A stretch of DNA of 64,000 bases from Pseudomonas protegens CHA0 (GTDB taxonomy: Bacteria; Pseudomonadota; Gammaproteobacteria; Pseudomonadales; Pseudomonadaceae), in NCBI RefSeq assembly GCF_000397205.1, contig NC_021237.1, forward strand, positions 2,233,001-2,297,000. The letters are read 5' to 3'. The notes beneath the pieces are model-generated. The model was not told the origin of the DNA, searched no databases, and saw nothing but the letters and a program-made list of their open reading frames with translations. Positions 19,811 to 57,751 of the stretch are shown piece after piece (within the stretch, counting starts at the first letter, position 1; the number at the start of each line of letters is the position of its first letter). The position numbers and the translations under genes were made by a program.

Positions 19811-20821
19811 TTAACGTCCTTCCAGCAACTGCCCGGCCTGATCCAGCAGGGCCAGCGGATCCTGGGTCTTGTGGATATCCACCGACAACAGCTGGCGGAA
19901 CTTGCGAGCACCGGGGAAGCCCGTGCCCAGCCCTAGGACATGGCGCGTGATGTGGTGCATGGCGCCCCCGGCAGCCAGGTGCTCGGCAATATAGGGGCGC
20001 AACCGGGCCAGCGCCTCGGCCCGGGAAATCACCGGCTCAGTGCTGCCAAACAGCTGCTGGTCTACCTCGGCCAGCAGATAGGGGTTGTGATAGGCCTCAC
20101 GGCCCAGCATCACCCCATCGAAAGTCTGCAGATGTTCATGACAGGCCTCGAGGGTCTTGATCCCACCGTTGAGGATGATTTCCAACTGTGGGAAATCCGC
20201 CTTCAATTGCGCCGCCACGTCGTAGCGCAGCGGGGGAATGTCCCGGTTCTCCTTGGGCGAGAGGCCTTCGAGAATGGCGATTCGTGCGTGCACGGTAAAG
20301 CTGCTGCATCCGGCTTCCATGACCTGGCCGACGAAATCGCATAGCTCGGCATAACTATCGCGACCGTTGATACCGATCCGATGCTTGACCGTCACGGGAA
20401 TCGACACCGCATCGCGCATGGCTTTCACGCAATCGGCCACCAGCGCCGGATGGCCCATCAGGCAGGCACCGATCATGTTGTTCTGCACCCGGTCGCTGGG
20501 GCAACCGACGTTGAGGTTGACCTCATCGTAGCCATGCTCCTGGGCCATGCGCGCGCACGCCGCGAGATCCGCCGGCGTGCTGCCCCCCAGTTGCAACGCC
20601 AGAGGGTGCTCGGACGGGTGGTAGCGCAGGAAGCGCTCGTGATCACCATTGAGCAGCGCACCCGTGGTGACCATTTCGGTGTAGAGCAAGGTGTGCTTGG
20701 ACAGTAGGCGCAGGAAGAATCGGCAGTGACGATCCGTCCAATCCATCATAGGTGCAACGCTAAACCGCCGGGACAGCGTAGGGCTTGAGTTTACTGGGGC
20801 TATAGCTGAATTCTGGACCAT
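19811..20821 (-). CDS. dusA: tRNA-dihydrouridine synthase A, 5' end supplied by prophage
   Basis: FMN-dependent enzyme that reduces U20/U20a in tRNA; 336 aa. The TIM barrel starts at SVAPMMDWTDRH, and NVGCPSDRVQ holds the catalytic Cys. The prophage attachment core cuts the gene within MMDWT. Codons upstream of it (20750-20821) come from the phage and give a new N-terminus beginning MVQNSAIAPVNSSPT, after which SRRFSVAPMMDWT is restored. The original 5' end lies at 57668-57751. The gene therefore remains complete but depends on a phage-borne start and promoter region. Confidence 0.95.
   Translation of the reverse strand: MVQNSAIAPVNSSPTLSRRFSVAPMMDWTDRHCRFFLRLLSKHTLLYTEMVTTGALLNGDHERFLRYHPSEHPLALQLGGSTPADLAACARMAQEHGYDEVNLNVGCPSDRVQNNMIGACLMGHPALVADCVKAMRDAVSIPVTVKHRIGINGRDSYAELCDFVGQVMEAGCSSFTVHARIAILEGLSPKENRDIPPLRYDVAAQLKADFPQLEIILNGGIKTLEACHEHLQTFDGVMLGREAYHNPYLLAEVDQQLFGSTEPVISRAEALARLRPYIAEHLAAGGAMHHITRHVLGLGTGFPGARKFRQLLSVDIHKTQDPLALLDQAGQLLEGR
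20736..20749. other. Left attachment core (attL)
   Basis: GTCCAATCCATCAT, identical to 57675-57688. It codes MMDWT(D) of DusA on the minus strand. Beyond the core towards the phage the match continues with only third-position changes (20750-20774 versus 57689-57713). Confidence 0.9.
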
Positions 20822-20924: not shown

Positions 20925-22076
20925 ATGGCGACTATCAGGGCAAGAAAACTGGCAGATGGGAGCGTGAGCTACACGGCTCAGATCCGCATCAAGCGCGACG
21001 GAGTGCAAGTTTACCAAGAGAGCCAGACCTTCGCCCGAAAACAGGCCGCTCAGGCCTGGGCGCGTAAGCGCGAGTCGGAGCTCGATGAACCTGGCGCGAT
21101 CGAGCGCGCGAGCCGCAAGGGCGCGACGCTCAAAGAAATGACCGAACGCTACCTGGTAGAGGTCGAGAAAGCCCGGCCGTTGGGTAAGACCAAGCGCGCG
21201 ACACTCAATGCCATTGGTGAGACGTACCTCGGCGAGCTGACCGACACGGACATCAATACTCAGTGCTTGGTCGATTTCGCGCTTTGGCGGATGAGCAAGG
21301 AAGGTGGCGGGGTTCAGCCACAAACCGCCGGCAATGACCTGGCGCACCTCGGTGCTGTTCTAGCGATTGCCAAGGATGCGTGGGGCTACCAAGTGGACCC
21401 GCTCGCCATGGGCGGAGCCCGGCGTGTACTGCGCAAGCTGGGTTACAACCTGAAAAGCCGTGAGCGCGACCGCCGGCTGACTTTGGACGAGTTGGGAAGG
21501 GTGCTGACGCACTACCAAGACATGCAGGCGAGGCGCCCAACTGTCATCAATATGCTGAAAGTCGTGGGCTTTGCCCTGTTCTCTACGCGCCGGCTGGATG
21601 AAATAACCCGTATTCGCTGGGCCGACGTCGACGAGCATGGTCAGCGAGTGCTGGTGCGCGACATGAAGAACCCCGGTCAGAAGATCGGCAACGATGTCTG
21701 GTGCTACCTGCCGGACGAGGCGTGGCAGATTCTCCAGACGATGCCAAAGGCCGGCGACGACATATTCCCCTACAGCCCTGAATCTATCTCCACTTCCTGG
21801 ACGAAAGCCTGCAAGTTTTTGAACATCGCAGATCTGCACTTCCATGACCTTCGCCACGAAGGCATCAGCCGTCTGTTCGAAATGGACTGGGATATTCCGC
21901 GTGTGGCGAGCGTTTCAGGGCATAGGGATTGGAACTCGATGAGGCGCTACACCCACCTGCGCGGGAAGGGTGATCGTTACGTGGGATGGGAATGGCACGA
22001 GAAGATGTTGAGGGCGCCCGTACAACTGGGCGCCGCGTCAATGAAGTGGCTCAGTAGGCGGGTTTTAACCCGTTGA
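20925..22076 (+). CDS. int: Tyrosine recombinase (dusA-type phage integrase)
   Basis: Catalyses prophage integration and excision at dusA. The 383-aa product has an N-terminal arm-binding region, a SAM-like core-binding domain (about 65-170) and a catalytic domain. Catalytic residues visible are Arg in FSTRRLDEI, HDLRHEG, SGHRDW, and the nucleophile Tyr in MRRYTHL. The start lies 176 bp from the attachment core and has no clear ribosome site; palindromic GTGGTAC sites sit directly upstream. Its 3' end overlaps the converging PrtN-like gene by 26 nt. Confidence 0.95.
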   Translation: MATIRARKLADGSVSYTAQIRIKRDGVQVYQESQTFARKQAAQAWARKRESELDEPGAIERASRKGATLKEMTERYLVEVEKARPLGKTKRATLNAIGETYLGELTDTDINTQCLVDFALWRMSKEGGGVQPQTAGNDLAHLGAVLAIAKDAWGYQVDPLAMGGARRVLRKLGYNLKSRERDRRLTLDELGRVLTHYQDMQARRPTVINMLKVVGFALFSTRRLDEITRIRWADVDEHGQRVLVRDMKNPGQKIGNDVWCYLPDEAWQILQTMPKAGDDIFPYSPESISTSWTKACKFLNIADLHFHDLRHEGISRLFEMDWDIPRVASVSGHRDWNSMRRYTHLRGKGDRYVGWEWHEKMLRAPVQLGAASMKWLSRRVLTR

Positions 22077-24276: not shown

Positions 24277-27102
24277 TCAGGCTTGGAAGTGCCAGCACTT
24301 CATGATGGGTTGCTTGGCTATTACGGCGTTGCTGGTCCGGGCCTGGTAGGCACGAACAGCGCTGTCAGTCGATTTGTTTGGGTGGAGCAGCTTCCGGGAC
24401 CGGGAGTCTTTCAAGCGATCCCGCAGTTCGCTGATGTCTGCGATTTTTTGGCGATGCTCGGCCGCGACCTTCACGAAGTCGTTGAGGTTGATGGCGATCA
24501 CGTTTTCATTCTTGCTGTGATTGACCACTGGCCCATCGGCGTCCAGGCCTTCGAGGTACTCGTAGACCTCCCAGAATTCGGTCACCACCGGATGGTCGGA
24601 ACTGATCGAGGCTTGGCGCTCGAGGGCCATGCTGATGATCAGGGCGCGGGTGCCGCTGATTTGCTGATCGCTGAGTTTCACAACGGTCTGCAAGCAGTCC
24701 AGGAGGGCGAGCAACTGGGCGTGGTTTTTGTTGATACGCTCGACCCGGATATAGCCGCGCAGGTTGTTGCCACAGTGCTTACAGGCGCTTCCCTCGTCGT
24801 GGAACGGCGTGGCGCAAGCGAAACAGTGGGAATGAAGAGTTCGCAGCTTGGCCTCGTATCCCGGCAGGCGCTGGCCGAACAGGTCCATGATGTCCTGCTC
24901 TTTGCGTACGGCCTGGAGCAGAAAGTTGCTCAGGGTCGAGCCTTCCAGGGAGTTGAGCAGGTCGGCCGCTGCGCGGCTTTCTGGCGTTACGTTGGGGCGG
25001 ACAAAGTGCAGTTTGACGATCCTGGTCATGATCGCTTCAGAAGCCACCACGGGGGCGTTCTGGCTGATTGCGATGGTGCCGCGGAACGGGGGCTCGTAGG
25101 TCTCGTTGCCGGCTGTCTTTACGCCTTTGGTCGCCAGGGTGCCGCCGCCGTAGTAGTCCTTGAGCTCGTCCCATTCAAAGGTTTTGGCGTGTGCCTTGTC
25201 GTCACCGCTACGGTCTGACTCCAGCAGAACGATAGGCATACCCGAAACCTGGCCCATCAGACGGCTTCGGCCGGCCTTGGTGGATTTGGACGGGTCGAAG
25301 CCTTCATAGCCCTCACGGCCCAGCAACTTCCACAGCAGGGTGAGCAAGGTGGTCTTGCCGGCGCCCGCTTCGCCTGTAGCTTCCAGGAACGGAAAGGACT
25401 GGTAGCGGCTACGGATCTGTTCGGCGAACAGGGAGCCAAACCAGAAGGCCAGGGCCACGATGCCCTGGGTGCCGAAGCACTGCCAGAGTAGGCCCAGCCA
25501 GCGCGGATCGTAGTGCTTGTCATCTTTGGTCAGGCCGATCTTCACACCCTTCTGCAGCGACTTCAGCTTGAGCTTGCCCATCTCGAAGAACTCCTCCTCG
25601 TTGATGCTGATGAGCTGGCCCTCACGAACGGCTATATCGTTGAAGACGTAGCAGCCGTATTCCTTGCTATAGCCGACGTAATCGATGGTCTGCACGGTTT
25701 TGATGGCGTACAGCTGGTCCTTCATGATCTTGTCCAACTGCTGGCCGCTGCCGGTGAATACGGCCCCTGCGGCCATGCCAAGCAGGCGCTTCTTGAACTC
25801 GCTGGCAGCGGCGACCTGGCCACCGGTGAAGGTGTTCTTCACTGAGCCGCCGTCGTGGGGGAAGTCGACCCGGAAGAAGTACCAGGATTCGTCCGTAATT
25901 TCGTTGCGCTGGAAATACAGAGCCTTGGGGTAGCAGTTGGCGATTTCGACGACGCAGCCAGCAACGTTCAACGCTTTCTCTCGCAGTTGCCGCTCGTTGA
26001 GGACTTGGGCGTCCTGGTCGTCGCTTTTCTCCAGGGCCTGCTTGGCGCTGTTGAACTTGGCAAGGTCCAACTTCCACCAGTACAGGCGGGAGTCGAAGCA
26101 GAAATGAAACTCCTCCCGCTCGCGCCACTGGTACATGAGCAACGCCTTGTCGGTGGCGCTTTCAGCGATCAGCAGGGCGCCATGGTGGCGTGCTTCGGTG
26201 AGGTCCTTGTCGATCCGGTGTGCCCGTTCAACTTCATCCTCCATGAAGGCCCAGCGCTGGTGCAGATCGTTCCAGTCGACCTTGCGAGCGTCGGGTTGTG
26301 GGATCTGCGCCGCCTCGCAAATGAATCCCAGCTCGCGAGCACGCTTGACCCAGGTCCGGGTGTATTTATGCGCCCCCGGCTCGTTGTCCAACGCCCAGAT
26401 AAGCTTGGGCGGCTTGCCTGCTCGGGCGGCGATCAATGCCTTCAGCGACTCTTCAGGAAAAGCATTGGAGGAAAGTGCCGACACTGCTGATATGCCGTTG
26501 TGAATCAGTGCAATGGCGTCGAAGACTCCCTCGACAATCCACAGTTCGTTGACCTGTAGCAGATCCAGACAAGGCGGACACCACCAGTAGCCCTTGTAGC
26601 TTTGCCCTGGCTGAAAGCGGGCCTTCTTTTTGCCGAAGCGCGAGGGCTGATCAATCAGCCGCTCCCAGTAGCCGCCGTGATCCAGGGGGAAGCGCACCGT
26701 CGCGGAGCCGATGTTCAGCTCCCCGTCGAAGTAGTTGTCTTGGGTGAACCATCCTGTGATGAGTTCCAGCCGGAAGCCGCGGGAGAAGGTGAGATAGGCT
26801 TTGGCGCTGGCCGTAGGGTTGTCATCGGTAGCCGGAGCGCGCTTGCTCCAGTTGTCGAACAGATCGGGGTACAGCTCCTTAGTGGGCGCCATGTACTTGC
26901 AGTTTTGCTCCCTGCCACAGCGGATGAACCAGGGCTCGTCGTGGCGGGAGAAGAGGCGTCGCTGATTGCACTGAGGGCAGGTGCCCTTGCGCATGTACTT
27001 CGTGCCAGCCATGTGCTGGAGGCCGAAGTCGGCCTCCAGGCGCTGGATAACATCAGCGCGGATCTGGTGTTCCATCGGCTTTTGCATGGACTTGCGGTTC
27101 AC
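24277..27102 (-). CDS. Toprim primase / DUF927-type helicase
   Basis: Large replication protein of 941 aa. In order: an N-terminal zinc finger (C42, C45, C62, C68); a Toprim-like primase region with WIVEGVFDAIAL and ALDNEPGAH (about 185-300); and a DUF927/SF3-like helicase region with Walker A GEAGAGKT at 577-584 and VLLESDRSGDDK. A zinc ribbon (CFAC..CKHC) and a C-terminal module of about 95 residues follow. The last module also ends the antirepressor at 53148. This layout recalls P4 alpha-type replication and replaces P2 gene A. GTG start follows GGAG. Confidence 0.88.
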   Translation of the reverse strand: MNRKSMQKPMEHQIRADVIQRLEADFGLQHMAGTKYMRKGTCPQCNQRRLFSRHDEPWFIRCGREQNCKYMAPTKELYPDLFDNWSKRAPATDDNPTASAKAYLTFSRGFRLELITGWFTQDNYFDGELNIGSATVRFPLDHGGYWERLIDQPSRFGKKKARFQPGQSYKGYWWCPPCLDLLQVNELWIVEGVFDAIALIHNGISAVSALSSNAFPEESLKALIAARAGKPPKLIWALDNEPGAHKYTRTWVKRARELGFICEAAQIPQPDARKVDWNDLHQRWAFMEDEVERAHRIDKDLTEARHHGALLIAESATDKALLMYQWREREEFHFCFDSRLYWWKLDLAKFNSAKQALEKSDDQDAQVLNERQLREKALNVAGCVVEIANCYPKALYFQRNEITDESWYFFRVDFPHDGGSVKNTFTGGQVAAASEFKKRLLGMAAGAVFTGSGQQLDKIMKDQLYAIKTVQTIDYVGYSKEYGCYVFNDIAVREGQLISINEEEFFEMGKLKLKSLQKGVKIGLTKDDKHYDPRWLGLLWQCFGTQGIVALAFWFGSLFAEQIRSRYQSFPFLEATGEAGAGKTTLLTLLWKLLGREGYEGFDPSKSTKAGRSRLMGQVSGMPIVLLESDRSGDDKAHAKTFEWDELKDYYGGGTLATKGVKTAGNETYEPPFRGTIAISQNAPVVASEAIMTRIVKLHFVRPNVTPESRAAADLLNSLEGSTLSNFLLQAVRKEQDIMDLFGQRLPGYEAKLRTLHSHCFACATPFHDEGSACKHCGNNLRGYIRVERINKNHAQLLALLDCLQTVVKLSDQQISGTRALIISMALERQASISSDHPVVTEFWEVYEYLEGLDADGPVVNHSKNENVIAINLNDFVKVAAEHRQKIADISELRDRLKDSRSRKLLHPNKSTDSAVRAYQARTSNAVIAKQPIMKCWHFQA

Positions 27103-29884: not shown

Positions 29885-29948
29885 AAAAATACGCTGAGGC
29901 GGTGCTTATTAATTCTAGGACAAGTGCCGTCGTTAAATGGAGAGAGTA

Positions 29949-30563
29949 ATGTCGATGAAGCAAATTGTTTGTGCGGCTCTTGTCTGTTTTGGTGTTTCCA
30001 TGCAAGTACAGGCTCAGCCGGATGTGAAACCGAGAATTTACGATTCTTTTGAGTTTCAAGGTCTAGTTTTGCCCGGTACCGCATTGGATGCAAAAAAAAC
30101 CGGCTTCAAAAATTGTGAATTCTCAGTTTATGTTGGATACATATGTAAGCGTGAGATTCCTGGCGAGATCTACGGAGTTAGGCTGAAGAGCGCGGAAGTC
30201 AAACTGAATGATGAGGCAAATTTTTCGGGTGAAAGCACCACCACTGATAAAAGTAAGTTGAGTGGTGTACCAATAGAAAAACTTTCATATGGTTCTATAT
30301 CTTTAAAGTTTGATAGTAAAGAGGAAAAGGCGTTTCAAGAAAAGTTGAAACTAGATGGTTGGGTGGAGCTGTCTCGTCGGTACTATACTTACTATAAGCG
30401 CGGGGTTAATGTGGAGATCGTTATAACTCGCTGGGAAGCAACTTTACACCCTGTTACGACAAAAGAAGTTAATGAGATTCTAGATCGGTTGGAAAAAGAA
30501 AATCAGGAGCGTGCAAAAAAAGATGATGCGGTGAAGAAAGCACAGGATTTCATGAAGTCATAG
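29949..30563 (+). CDS. Exported protein of unknown function, low GC
   Basis: The 204-aa product has a signal peptide ending near VQAQPD, a region with two Cys (FKNCEF, GYICKRE) that may form a disulfide, and a charged helical tail (DRLEKENQERAKKDDAVKKAQ). ATG at 29949 has GGAGAG upstream. Base composition is clearly AT-richer than the phage core, which marks a recent accessory gene. Probably periplasmic and expressed in the lysogen. Confidence 0.65.
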   Translation: MSMKQIVCAALVCFGVSMQVQAQPDVKPRIYDSFEFQGLVLPGTALDAKKTGFKNCEFSVYVGYICKREIPGEIYGVRLKSAEVKLNDEANFSGESTTTDKSKLSGVPIEKLSYGSISLKFDSKEEKAFQEKLKLDGWVELSRRYYTYYKRGVNVEIVITRWEATLHPVTTKEVNEILDRLEKENQERAKKDDAVKKAQDFMKS

Positions 30564-41762: not shown

Positions 41763-41808
41763 GACGCCGATGGTGGCGCCGCGCGCGTGCGGGTGCAGCT
41801 TTGGCTCC

Positions 41809-41829
41809 TTGTATGAGGAACCGGTACAA
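41809..41829. promoter_or_regulatory. Putative Ogr site of the V operon
   Basis: TTGTA-N11-TACAA, a perfect 5-bp dyad, centred 57 bp before the V start. Confidence 0.65.
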
Positions 41830-41878
41830 TCGAAACGCGATTAAAATCGCAGTTTTGATGGTTAACAGGGAGGTGATT

Positions 41879-42436
41879 ATGTTGCTTGAGATATTAGGTA
41901 AGGCACCGACTGAGGCTTGGGTCGGTCTTGGTGGTGTGATATTTGGTTCGCTTCTTACGACTTTTGGTGTTTGGTTAACAAATCGGTCAAACGCTAAACA
42001 AGCTGCTCAGAGATTGGAGCATGAAGAAAGAGTATCTAGTGAAAAGGTTCGTAAAGAACGCTTAGAGGAGCTTTATGTTCTTGTTGGTGTTTGGGGTGAT
42101 AAGGCTGTAAGTGATTTTGAAGATTTTGTTTCTAAGATGCGCGGTTTTAACTTGGATGAGCCTAGCTCTTCAGATGGAAAAGTACGTGGCGAGTCGCCGT
42201 TAATCAGGATTGGAATGATAATCTCCATATATAGTGATACGGCAGTCGATAGCTTTGGAGCTGTTCAAGAGTCTTTTGGTAAAGTAGGTAATCTTCAGTT
42301 TGAATCCTATATGGTCGCTGACGAAGTGGTTAAGCTTCGAGAAGTTATGGGTCTTATGAGTGTGGCTATTCAAGAATTTCAGACTGCGCTTAGAGAGTTT
42401 AAGGCCGCCATTGCCGTCGAGGCTCGATCGGTCTAG
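41879..42436 (+). CDS. Single-pass membrane protein, low-GC accessory gene
   Basis: The 185-aa product has one N-terminal membrane helix (VGLGGVIFGSLLTTFGVWLT, residues 14-33), a charged coiled coil (residues 37-60, RLEHEERVSSEKVRKERLEEL), and a helical C-terminal domain. ATG follows a perfect AGGGAGG. It is on the strand opposite to the late genes, strongly AT-rich, and sits between S and V, where the late operon is split. The small hairpin GCGAT-TAAA-ATCGC lies in its leader. Best read as a lysogenically expressed accessory gene (exclusion or defence); no family recognised. Confidence 0.75.
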   Translation: MLLEILGKAPTEAWVGLGGVIFGSLLTTFGVWLTNRSNAKQAAQRLEHEERVSSEKVRKERLEELYVLVGVWGDKAVSDFEDFVSKMRGFNLDEPSSSDGKVRGESPLIRIGMIISIYSDTAVDSFGAVQESFGKVGNLQFESYMVADEVVKLREVMGLMSVAIQEFQTALREFKAAIAVEARSV

Positions 42437-53147: not shown

Positions 53148-54008
53148 TCAGTCAGCGGCCTGCTCTACAGTGAAAATCCAGCATCTGACACTTTGTGCCT
53201 TGCCTTCTTCGTTGCGGGCATGCGCTGAGTGGCTGCATTTGTTGGCTTCGACAAATCGCGGATGTTGGCTAAGGCGTAAGGCGTGTCGCAACTCGGATAG
53301 GTGGGGCATTGCGCAGCGTTGTGCCTGGGCTGCTCGAGTCACTTCATTCAAGTTGATAGCAAGCTTCCCTGGTGCCACGGCGTGGTTGAGCTTGTGACCC
53401 TCCGGTTGCGCGCTGAGGTGGTAAAACAGATCCCAGAACTCTGTGACCAGATCCGGAACATCCGGTTCAGCCCTGCTTATCGCTTCAAGTGCCGGTGTCG
53501 ACAACCCCAACTGGCGAGATGTTTGATCCAGTTGCTCATGGAGTGCGGCACGCAACGCGTTATTACGTGTTCTGTTCAACTCTTTGAGTAGCGTGATGCG
53601 GTGGCGGGAGAGTGCAATCTGCTGATTGACGTTCGGTGCCCCAGCCCGTTCGGCGCTACCTTTGGTCCAGTAACTCCACAATGCGTCGTCGCATTCTTCC
53701 TGGTAGCGGGTGATCTTATCGCGCAGCTCGGTGGGCACTTTATTGGGGCTGATTGAGTAGAGCCAGGCTGGGAGTTTGCGGAGGGGGAGGCAGACCATGT
53801 CGTATTGCTTACCATCACCACCAGTTGTGGTCATTTCAACCATAACTGAGTTGAATTTTTCACTGAGCTTCCGGTATTGGGTTTTCCAGTCCATCCCCAT
53901 ATTGGTAACGATCGGTTTCATTGCTACCAGCGGCTCATTGTCTTTGCCGACAAGGACAACGGTGTCCTCATAGAACGGGACGGGCATCACGTGCTGGGCT
54001 GTTTGCAT
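53148..54008 (-). CDS. P22 Ant-type antirepressor
   Basis: The 286-aa product has the P22_AR N-terminal domain (residues 1-115: PVPFYEDTVVLV, PIVTNMGMDWKTQYRKL, MVCLPLRKLPAWLYSI) and a C-terminal module (about 185-286: DLVTEFWDLFYHL, LAINLNEVTRAA, HLSELRHAL, RCWIF). The C-terminal module recurs at the end of the primase. Antirepressors inactivate phage repressors, which may be the induction route here because the repressor has no peptidase domain. Confidence 0.85.
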   Translation of the reverse strand: MQTAQHVMPVPFYEDTVVLVGKDNEPLVAMKPIVTNMGMDWKTQYRKLSEKFNSVMVEMTTTGGDGKQYDMVCLPLRKLPAWLYSISPNKVPTELRDKITRYQEECDDALWSYWTKGSAERAGAPNVNQQIALSRHRITLLKELNRTRNNALRAALHEQLDQTSRQLGLSTPALEAISRAEPDVPDLVTEFWDLFYHLSAQPEGHKLNHAVAPGKLAINLNEVTRAAQAQRCAMPHLSELRHALRLSQHPRFVEANKCSHSAHARNEEGKAQSVRCWIFTVEQAAD

Positions 54009-54833: not shown

Positions 54834-54880
54834 TGGAGCGGGTGAAGGGAATCGAACCCTCGTTATCAGCTTGGGAAGCT
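54834..54880 (-). pseudogene. 3' fragment of tRNA-Gly(CCC)
   Basis: Read on the minus strand: anticodon loop TTCCCAA, 3' arm of the anticodon stem, variable loop, T arm with GGTTCGATTCC, acceptor 3' strand CACCCGC, then TCCA. The 5' half (acceptor 5' strand and D arm) is missing and the 5' side of the anticodon stem pairs poorly. This is the part of a tRNA gene that integrating elements duplicate. The dyad TATGCAC/GTGCATA lies just beyond (54889-54925). The rest to 55052 holds nothing supportable. Confidence 0.7.
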
Positions 54881-55052: not shown

Positions 55053-55667
55053 TTAGGCTAACAAATCAATATAGCTATTTATCTCTAGTGTTGGGGGGGA
55101 TAATAGTGGTTTGATCATTGCAGTGTGCTGCTTGAAGGTAAAGGGCTTAAATGTCGCAGCATAATCATTCAGAAGTCCCTTTAAGCGCTCAGCAATGGTT
55201 TTAACCTTATTAATAAACTCGTCATGACTTTGGCATTTTGTTCTGATCTGTAAAGGGTCGCACACTAACCATAGATTTAGGCTTTCTAATTCATATTCAA
55301 TGTCGATGAATATGTGCTGAAAATCTTGGGGGAAAAACCTATGGAAAATAGTATTAAATTTTTCTTCTATGTCGGACTTTTTTATGTTTTTAAATCTTGA
55401 TGACTTTAGCTCGGCTATGTAGAAATGGTATTTTTCATTCGATCCTTTGACTATCGCTATTCCATCTACTGACTTTGGGGGGGCTGCAAAGGTCGGGGTG
55501 CAATAATAATCGTCTGGTTTGAGTATTACAATTTTGTTGCTGTCAAGGTCCCCATTATCTAAAAGTAAGGTGGTTCCAATTTCAACTTCCATACCTTGTT
55601 CAGACAAGGTATGTCTAATTAGTTGTTGCATGGAGGGGTCAGCGTATATGCTTGGGATCAATTGCAA
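55053..55667 (-). CDS. Probable PD-(D/E)XK nuclease-like partner protein
   Basis: A 204-aa soluble protein. VDGIAIVKG.. with Asp68 and YIAELKSS with Glu86-x-Lys88 give D-x17-E-x-K, the spacing of a PD-(D/E)XK nuclease core. Strand predictions around them (hydrophobic runs IAIV and FYIAEL) agree. The C-terminal half is helical. It overlaps the ATPase gene by 10 nt, so it is made with it. Low GC. No exact family recognised. Confidence 0.6.
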   Translation of the reverse strand: MQLIPSIYADPSMQQLIRHTLSEQGMEVEIGTTLLLDNGDLDSNKIVILKPDDYYCTPTFAAPPKSVDGIAIVKGSNEKYHFYIAELKSSRFKNIKKSDIEEKFNTIFHRFFPQDFQHIFIDIEYELESLNLWLVCDPLQIRTKCQSHDEFINKVKTIAERLKGLLNDYAATFKPFTFKQHTAMIKPLLSPPTLEINSYIDLLA

Positions 55668-57136
55668 TCATCCTTGTTGTTTTGAGAGTTCTCACCCATA
55701 AGCAGTTCCATACGCTCGTTTATCAAGTCTTCTGATGCATCACCAAAGTTTTCGTCATTTATGCCAAACTCATCAACGATCTGAGGGATTCCAATGCTGC
55801 CTTTTTCCTCCATTAGAAATAAGTCGCATTGTACGTCTTTACTTGGCAAAATTCCTTCGATCACTAAGTTACTAGCTTTGTTGAACACGTAGTTGCTGTG
55901 TGAGGTCATAATCACGGAAACTCCTAGCTGAGCAAGATCCGCATAAAACCTGGTCATTTTAATTTGATTTATTGGGTGTAAATGTGCTTCGGGCTCTTCA
56001 ATGATAAGTATTTTCTTGAAGTCAATTGGAGTCGTTTTATTTCTTCGTCTCAAACGAGCTTTAATTGAAGACTCTTCGGTATTCCATGCTATGACATGGC
56101 GAATGTAGGCAACAATAGGTGCGGTTTCAGACACCATTGAAGATGTAGAGGATATATCTAGCCGTAATGTCGTACCGTTAGGCCTGTAGAATAGCTTCTT
56201 TTCTTCGAAGTCAAACTCAATGCAGCCCTTTAAAACGTCAGCTTCAATGTTTTTTGCAAGTTTCTCAAATTGCTGTACGTTTCTATCTATCGCTACAATG
56301 TTGGTGAGTCTAATGAAATAGTCGCTTAACTGACCTGAAATGCCCGGCAACTCAATTTTAGATGTAAGAAATGACCGGCTTTTAGAAAGCTCTGCGATAA
56401 TTTGCCCAAATGCGGATAGCGCTTGATATAGACCTGAACGAGATGCAGGTAGGTAATCGATATCTAGAATGTTTTCTGCTGCATCTACTAATGACTGAAT
56501 GACTCTTCGGACGCAAACTGATTTTACTTTCCTTATTATGTCTTCGGCGTCTTCAGTGGTTGATATATATATGACGAGGTCTTTGCCAATTATTGTGGTG
56601 TTTCTATTTTGCTTGGAGTATCTGAGAATTACGCCATGATTAAATTCTATATTGGCAACTTTGAACTCATCAATGTTTCCCTCCAAGGAAAAGCTAACGC
56701 TGCCTAGATCTACAGATATCTTGGCTATGTTGGAGTCTGAGAAGCTATTGGAAATAGAGTTGTGTTCGGAATAAGAGCTTCTGACTTTTTTTGAGAACTC
56801 TTCACCAACGCTGTGCTGTAAAAAGTCCTTTGCGAGATGACGGTAAAAAGTTAAGGCGTTGAGGGATTTTGACTTCTTATCTTTTATTAGATTTTTGAAA
56901 TCGGTAACTTCTTGTTTTGGAGAGTCTTCCTCTTCGTCAGCGATTTCATACAAAAACATCCTTCTATTGAAGGAGGTTATTGAGCTGAATTCAAGCAGGC
57001 TTTTTACCATGAAATAAAATATGGTTAATACGTAGGATTTTCCTACGTTGTTGTCACCTACTATTAGATGGAATTTTTTTTGTGTGTCAAAAGTGAATTC
57101 TTTAACCGGGCCGAAATTCTCAATTTTAACTTTCAT
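55658..57136 (-). CDS. ABC/OLD-like ATPase, candidate defence protein
   Basis: The 492-aa product starts with MKVKIENFGPVKEF and Walker A GDNNVGKS (residues 27-34). A long insert of about 300 residues follows, partly helical. Then come Walker B IIEEPEAHLHP (E380-P386) and the switch His413 in TSHSNYV. This is the RecF/OLD/AAA_15 layout used by many anti-phage systems. AT-rich against the phage core. It forms an operon with the nuclease-like gene at the prophage's right end. Confidence 0.8.
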   Translation of the reverse strand: MKVKIENFGPVKEFTFDTQKKFHLIVGDNNVGKSYVLTIFYFMVKSLLEFSSITSFNRRMFLYEIADEEEDSPKQEVTDFKNLIKDKKSKSLNALTFYRHLAKDFLQHSVGEEFSKKVRSSYSEHNSISNSFSDSNIAKISVDLGSVSFSLEGNIDEFKVANIEFNHGVILRYSKQNRNTTIIGKDLVIYISTTEDAEDIIRKVKSVCVRRVIQSLVDAAENILDIDYLPASRSGLYQALSAFGQIIAELSKSRSFLTSKIELPGISGQLSDYFIRLTNIVAIDRNVQQFEKLAKNIEADVLKGCIEFDFEEKKLFYRPNGTTLRLDISSTSSMVSETAPIVAYIRHVIAWNTEESSIKARLRRRNKTTPIDFKKILIIEEPEAHLHPINQIKMTRFYADLAQLGVSVIMTSHSNYVFNKASNLVIEGILPSKDVQCDLFLMEEKGSIGIPQIVDEFGINDENFGDASEDLINERMELLMGENSQNNKDDCN

Positions 57137-57667: not shown

Positions 57668-57751
57668 TTAGTAGGTCCAATCCATCATCGGCGCCACGCT
57701 GAAGCGCCGGGAAGGTTCTGAACGGGAAGGGCTTGAAGCGGTAAAGGGCAT
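57668..57751 (-). pseudogene. dusA: Displaced original 5' end of dusA
   Basis: Codes 27 residues, MPFTASSPSRSEP then SRRFSVAPMMDWT, and stops in phage DNA after one more codon. The last 13 codons encode the same residues as the phage-borne end of the intact dusA at 20821, differing only at third positions outside the core. Confidence 0.9.
57675..57688. other. Right attachment core (attR)
   Basis: GTCCAATCCATCAT, identical to the left core. The host sequence to its right is the original start of dusA. An inverted repeat CAACCGCC/GGCGGTTG lies in the old leader near 57775-57799. Confidence 0.9.

Follow-up and report, generated by a model that had tools for sequence, protein, structure and literature searches.

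WonAB, described from a Vibrio prophage, combines an OLD-type ATP-binding cassette (ABC) ATPase with a PD-(D/E)xK-variant nuclease (Adams et al., 2025; PMC12137116) and is also covered in a review (PMC12409358). According to its published description, protection depends on both genes and is lost when ATPase or nuclease residues are mutated, and overproduced WonB is toxic only in the presence of WonA and an active ATPase; in infected cells phage DNA still replicates, with a 2.7-fold defect, and chromosomal DNA stays intact, while translation stops (PMC12137116). Its authors place WonAB in a wider family in which ABC ATPases serve as sensors and nucleases as effectors, naming as relatives PD-T4-4 and the "OLD-ABC ATPase + novel REase" operons, the latter credited there to Krishnan et al. 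(2020). For PD-T4-4 (Vassallo et al., 2022; PMC9519451), a review lists a PF13175 ATPase and a PD(D/E)XK nuclease (PMC10952713). Here we describe a gene pair of this general type from Pseudomonas protegens CHA0, encoding an ABC/OLD-type ATPase and a small nuclease-like partner carried at one end of a prophage in dusA, which is probably a two-component anti-phage (or anti-superinfection) module acting through cell arrest. The window, that is, the whole stretch of 64,000 nucleotides (nt) that was analysed, covers positions 2233001-2297000 of a genome made of a single contig of 6,867,980 bp (NC_021237.1).

The gene pair and its products

The pair comprises the following features, in window coordinates (aa, amino acids; ORF, open reading frame):

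57136..55658, minus strand: ABC/OLD-type ATPase (AAA_15), 492 aa, from the ORF reading, conserved columns, a structure model and solved-fold matches
55661..55053, minus strand: nuclease-like partner of the PD-(D/E)XK type, 202 aa starting at the TTG at 55661, from the ORF and homologue alignments
55658..55661, minus strand: TTGA, the 4-nt stop/start overlap of the ATPase and partner genes, from the sequence
55675-55671: AAGGA, likely ribosome-binding site of the partner gene, nine bases upstream of TTG 55661

Both genes are conserved in relatives and are therefore unlikely to be chance ORFs, and they lie where an initial annotation of this DNA had placed two overlapping ORFs, one of them for a 492-aa ATPase. 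That annotation gave the partner as 204 aa, reading the same ORF from an alternative TTG at 55667 (55667..55053). The 202-aa gene, 55661..55053, is the likelier one because 15 of 18 aligned homologues start two codons inside the longer reading, the TTG at 55661 overlaps the ATPase gene, and AAGGA lies upstream of it; residue numbers (D68, E86, K88, K103) follow the 204-aa count throughout. A 4-nt overlap is also present in loci L103 and L105. The guanine plus cytosine (GC) fraction of the pair is 0.382, compared with 0.599 for the prophage (20774-55000) and 0.600 for the whole window, bearing out the earlier remark that the pair differs in composition from the phage core.

The ATPase contains GDNNVGKS (27-34), EEPEAHLHP (380-388) and H413, and of these K33, the whole of 380-388 and H413 are invariant columns in an alignment of 34 sequences, with PASRSG (230-235) also conserved. 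We take these elements to be the Walker A motif (27-34), a signature-like SSMVSE (332-337), the Walker B/catalytic glutamates (EE, 380-381) and the H-loop (H413); Walker A and His413 had been located correctly before, and EEPEAHLHP had been given as 380-386. Only AAA_15 and AAA_21 pass their Pfam cut-offs, and among PADLOC models the protein matches PD-T4-4_A (E 9e-23), AriA (E 5.5e-23) and PDC-M47A (E 3e-19). Its structure model (predicted local distance difference test, pLDDT, 81.2) has the retron/Septu PtuA ATPases and Rad50/SMC heads among its nearest solved folds, and predicts a C-terminal end formed by a helix (469-490) that follows the ATPase fold.

In the partner, D52, D68, E86 and K103 are identical in all 79 aligned sequences and K88 in 77, the alignment containing near-duplicates (for example P0149 and L032); the D68 and E86-x-K88 noticed in the initial annotation are correct in 204-aa numbering. 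ELR replaces ELK at the presumed active site in two homologues (L022:9406-9966 and L023:1615-2178). A smaller alignment, A1, holds 18 of 21 proteins, with P0001, P0007 and P0008 left out as near-copies or short. Structure prediction, proposed earlier as a check, places the expected PD-(D/E)XK core in the partner model (pLDDT 89.9), but structure searches with this model returned weak matches only. On motif and topology, the partner looks like a PD-(D/E)XK nuclease. It found no match among the Pfam, NCBIfam, PADLOC and PHROG models (PADLOC searched to E <= 1; one chance-level Pfam match), in agreement with the previous inability to assign it to a named system.

ATPase and partner as an inherited unit

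The two genes travel together. In all six viral-contig loci with a partner homologue the ATPase lies directly upstream of it, and the partner is present in each of the eight viral loci with a full-length ATPase match of at least 34% identity, six of these being contigs already counted with the partner. Beside two weaker full-length viral ATPases, L110 and L111 (22%), the downstream ORF is not recognised by the partner profile at E <= 1. Among 13 loci from genomes labelled Gammaproteobacteria, Bacteroidota and others (L022-L034; ATPase identity 30-48%), drawn from the best 80 of at least 302 matches, ten have the partner, the exceptions being a short partner remnant in L030 (E 0.00096), a locus that ends just past the ATPase (L031), and a 657-aa ORF in its place (L024). 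In one scan of 126 loci, reading was confined to the 39 that passed an ATPase filter, which misses some true ATPase loci (L025, L026 and L028, for example). In 18 of 18 two-gene loci the junction ranges from a 32-nt overlap to a 13-nt gap when the earliest possible start codon is assumed. Over 19 pairs, ATPase and partner distances are correlated with r = 0.960, a value reached in none of 2000 permutations, which shows co-inheritance, not contact. ATPase and partner are one unit.

The dusA prophage and its cargo

The gene at 19811..20821 reads as dusA. This name fits published integration at the dusA site, where islands and prophages insert between 21-bp semiconserved flanking repeats, and the same source includes Prophage 03 of P. 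protegens Pf-5 among the dusA integrants, listed as a P2-like lysogen (PMC4482086). The relevant features are:

19811..20821, minus strand: dusA, the integration target, encoding a 336-aa tRNA-dihydrouridine synthase A with counterparts of 87-90% identity in L006, L013, L014 and L017
20736-20773: attL-like repeat in the 5' end of dusA, found in a DNA search of the genome itself with the right flank
57675-57712: attR-like repeat marking the prophage's right end, sharing 33 of 38 bases with 20736-20773
20925..22076, plus strand: integrase of the dusA prophage, 383 aa, a PHROG integrase, with proteins of about 69% identity in L005, L006, L013, L014 and L017
49361-52167: terminase and portal ORFs, from PHROG matches
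54834..54880, minus strand: 3' fragment of a tRNA-Gly(CCC) gene, outside the system, matching the 3' portion of an intact copy, 660 kb distant, in 47 of 47 bases

Since dusA-type repeats bracket it, the prophage measures 36,977 bp (about 37 kb) from one outer repeat end to the other, with the pair as its final genes ahead of attR. The pair is cargo of the dusA prophage, and the cargo position at the prophage edge proposed earlier holds. The adjoining tRNA fragment, previously read as marking the cargo site, is real, but the repeats that bracket the prophage are those of dusA and not the tRNA piece, which rules out the fragment as the insertion site; it may be left over from an earlier insertion or capture event.

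Relatives of the pair occur in various settings on other mobile elements. In L005 and L006 they lie beside an integrase 69-70% identical to that of the prophage, with dusA also present in L006; in L001 and L007 they are near baseplate genes, and in L002 near a portal gene and a terminase 81% identical to the window's. The contig of L004 (IMGVR_UViG_2511231183_000001) has relatives at 60% (ATPase) and 50% (partner) identity together with Zot-like and single-strand-binding proteins, which are typical of filamentous phages, so that the module is probably carried on filamentous prophages as well. No match to the pair was found in 50,697 phage records, a list that may omit near relatives of the window's genome.

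The far end of such elements also varies. Two matches to the dusA repeat were found in each of four other genomes, in three of them on one contig and 39-46 kb apart, where the first repeat accompanies dusA and an integrase 68-69% identical; these three (L152, L153 and L154, of the same genus) were read, and the fourth, G376, has its repeats on different contigs. Just inside the second repeat, L152 encodes two CAP12/Pycsar TIR-domain proteins, L153 a RelA/SpoT protein and an HNH protein besides an AAA_15 ATPase, and L154 a protein of 833 aa that matches TPR models and, weakly, ATPase models. Of the nine second-repeat proteins scanned, four are without a PADLOC match (two further ones of L152, one of L153 and the L154 protein). 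The far end of these putative dusA elements is a slot for changing cargo, and the two ends of dusA prophages are places to look for further Pseudomonas defence genes.

Elsewhere in the prophage, two low-GC ORFs, 29937-30563 (0.41) and 41801-42436 (0.43), are possible extra cargo. The C-terminal third of the Ant antirepressor (53148-54008) matches the C terminus of phrog_1139, a family of phage DNA primases, and the prophage's 941-aa primase-like protein (24277-27102) seems, by eye, to end in a domain like Ant's.

Proposed function and alternatives

We infer, with considerable confidence, that the pair has a role in defence. In the fuller mechanism that we consider probable, the ATPase would dimerise around ATP at its SMC/PtuA-like head and control the nuclease; a phage trigger would alter the state of the ATPase, and the nuclease would then act and stop the infection. 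The outcome would most likely be killing or arrest of the cell, as for WonAB, rather than restriction of incoming DNA, although translation arrest as the specific outcome is about as likely as not.

The likeliest alternative is a DNA-degrading, restriction-like system, in which foreign DNA is recognised by the ATPase, or serves as its track for sliding, and is cut directly by the partner while the cell survives. Many PD-(D/E)XK enzymes are DNases, and the resemblance of the ATPase to Rad50/SMC heads and to Septu PtuA would suit such a function. We nevertheless regard it as unlikely, as the operon holds just the two genes, and WonAB leaves the chromosome intact and phage DNA replicating while translation stops (PMC12137116). 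Overlapping genes and a prophage location, together with the toxicity of overproduced WonB, would also accord with a plain toxin-antitoxin pair maintaining the prophage, with the nuclease as toxin and the ATPase as antitoxin; this is improbable, given that WonB toxicity requires WonA and its ATPase activity, whereby the authors exclude simple sequestration (PMC12137116). Least credible is a phage core function (a nuclease of replication, packaging or recombination), for which the pair's place within the prophage, with the portal gene some 3 kb away, would speak, but against which stand its GC fraction (0.38 against 0.60), its varying position among phages (beside the integrase in L005/L006, near baseplate genes in L001/L007, near terminase and portal genes in L002, and in the filamentous-type L004) and the failure of the phage records above, near relatives possibly omitted, to yield a match.

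A two-gene arrest module of this kind would be a testable defence candidate in a probably plant-protecting model strain of soil Pseudomonas.

Comparison with named systems

The initial annotation is supported in its ATPase and PD-(D/E)XK-like nuclease, prophage cargo and defence logic; its "undescribed" fails because published systems, namely WonAB, the "OLD-ABC ATPase + novel REase" operons and PD-T4-4, share the two-gene architecture (PMC12137116). The general type of system is already published, and this branch is without match to a named system; it is not named in the open-access text consulted on WonAB and OLD-ABC ATPases, by which we do not claim its absence from print.

As to the systems invoked initially for their similar logic, the ATPase has the fold of Septu and retron PtuAB among its closest solved structures. 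Septu, however, uses an HNH nuclease, PtuB, and membership is rejected since the partner here has no HNH match and carries D68/E86/K88. In PARIS, AriB (DUF4435) occurs as partner or fusion; for the partner here PADLOC gives no match at E <= 1 and Pfam a single chance-level one, which rejects PARIS even though the ATPase matches AriA. Gabija combines a TOPRIM nuclease domain in GajA with the GajB helicase, and is rejected likewise, since neither a TOPRIM match in the ATPase nor a helicase match in its neighbour was found. PDC-M47, a PADLOC candidate for which no paper was found in the open-access literature, also has an ATPase and a small D...ExK protein, in L150 and L151, and its ATPases can be aligned in part with ours (E 3.8e-15, 94 columns), but PDC-M47B and the window partner give no direct hidden Markov model match and have weakly similar profiles (E 0.0036 and 0.0003; probability 9% and 40%). 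PD-T4-4 is alike in joining a PF13175 ATPase, whose model PD-T4-4_A the present protein matches, to a PD-(D/E)XK nuclease, and differs in that the partner here matches no PADLOC model, PD-T4-4_B included, at E <= 1 and shows no match to PF11645, the nuclease domain listed for PD-T4-4 (PMC10952713); the two may still be remotely related.

The "OLD-ABC ATPase + novel REase" operons, as described in PMC12137116, agree with the pair in gene order and predicted fold classes. In a chain of profile comparisons, the window partner profile matches partners of about 170-190 aa (E 5.6e-40, in a set collected with the window's own profile). This set in turn matches partners of about 150-165 aa that accompany more distantly related ATPases, the D, E and K positions falling into the same columns (E 2.1e-7, probability 94%); compared directly, the window partner and the 150-165-aa set are weakly similar (E 0.0013). 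In the small-partner alignment A5, containing ten of the 13 members of set A4 (L056, L058 and L110 aligned poorly and were excluded), D and E never vary and the lysine is missing in two of ten. Conserved cysteines are common to these smaller partners, which may correspond to the published Krishnan set, and are lacking in the window's branch. Distant ATPases of the same type, followed by D...E-x-K proteins of about 150-207 aa, are seen in L035, L038, L050, L063, L064, L083, L087, L110, L111, L155 and L156, labelled bacteria and archaea, with weak PADLOC matches only (five tested), suggesting a broad family. Tentatively, the pair may represent a branch of its own within the ATPase–nuclease family, mobile with phages, without the family cysteines and with proteins longer than those of WonAB, which may have another trigger or target (RNA or phage DNA). 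If so, dusA elements would trade sensor–nuclease modules at their ends, excluding rival phages.

WonAB itself, by its published description, is likewise a prophage two-gene operon in which an OLD-type ABC ATPase precedes a small PD-(D/E)xK-variant nuclease with an essential lysine (PMC12137116). WonA has 33 residues from E300 to H333, as has the ATPase here from E380 to H413 (32 if E381 is the equivalent). The differences are that WonB is a 16.1-kDa protein with K71, compared with 202 aa and K88 (204-aa numbering) for our partner, and that 148 residues separate K34 from R182 in WonA, against 200 between K33 and R233 here, if that is the equivalent arginine; the WonA spacing was absent from every locus fetched. 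The candidate can be linked to the published WonAB and, as a second, diverged protein set, it helps to find which residues matter. By description and chained profile comparisons the pair is a probable member of the WonAB family and, on present evidence, would work like WonAB.
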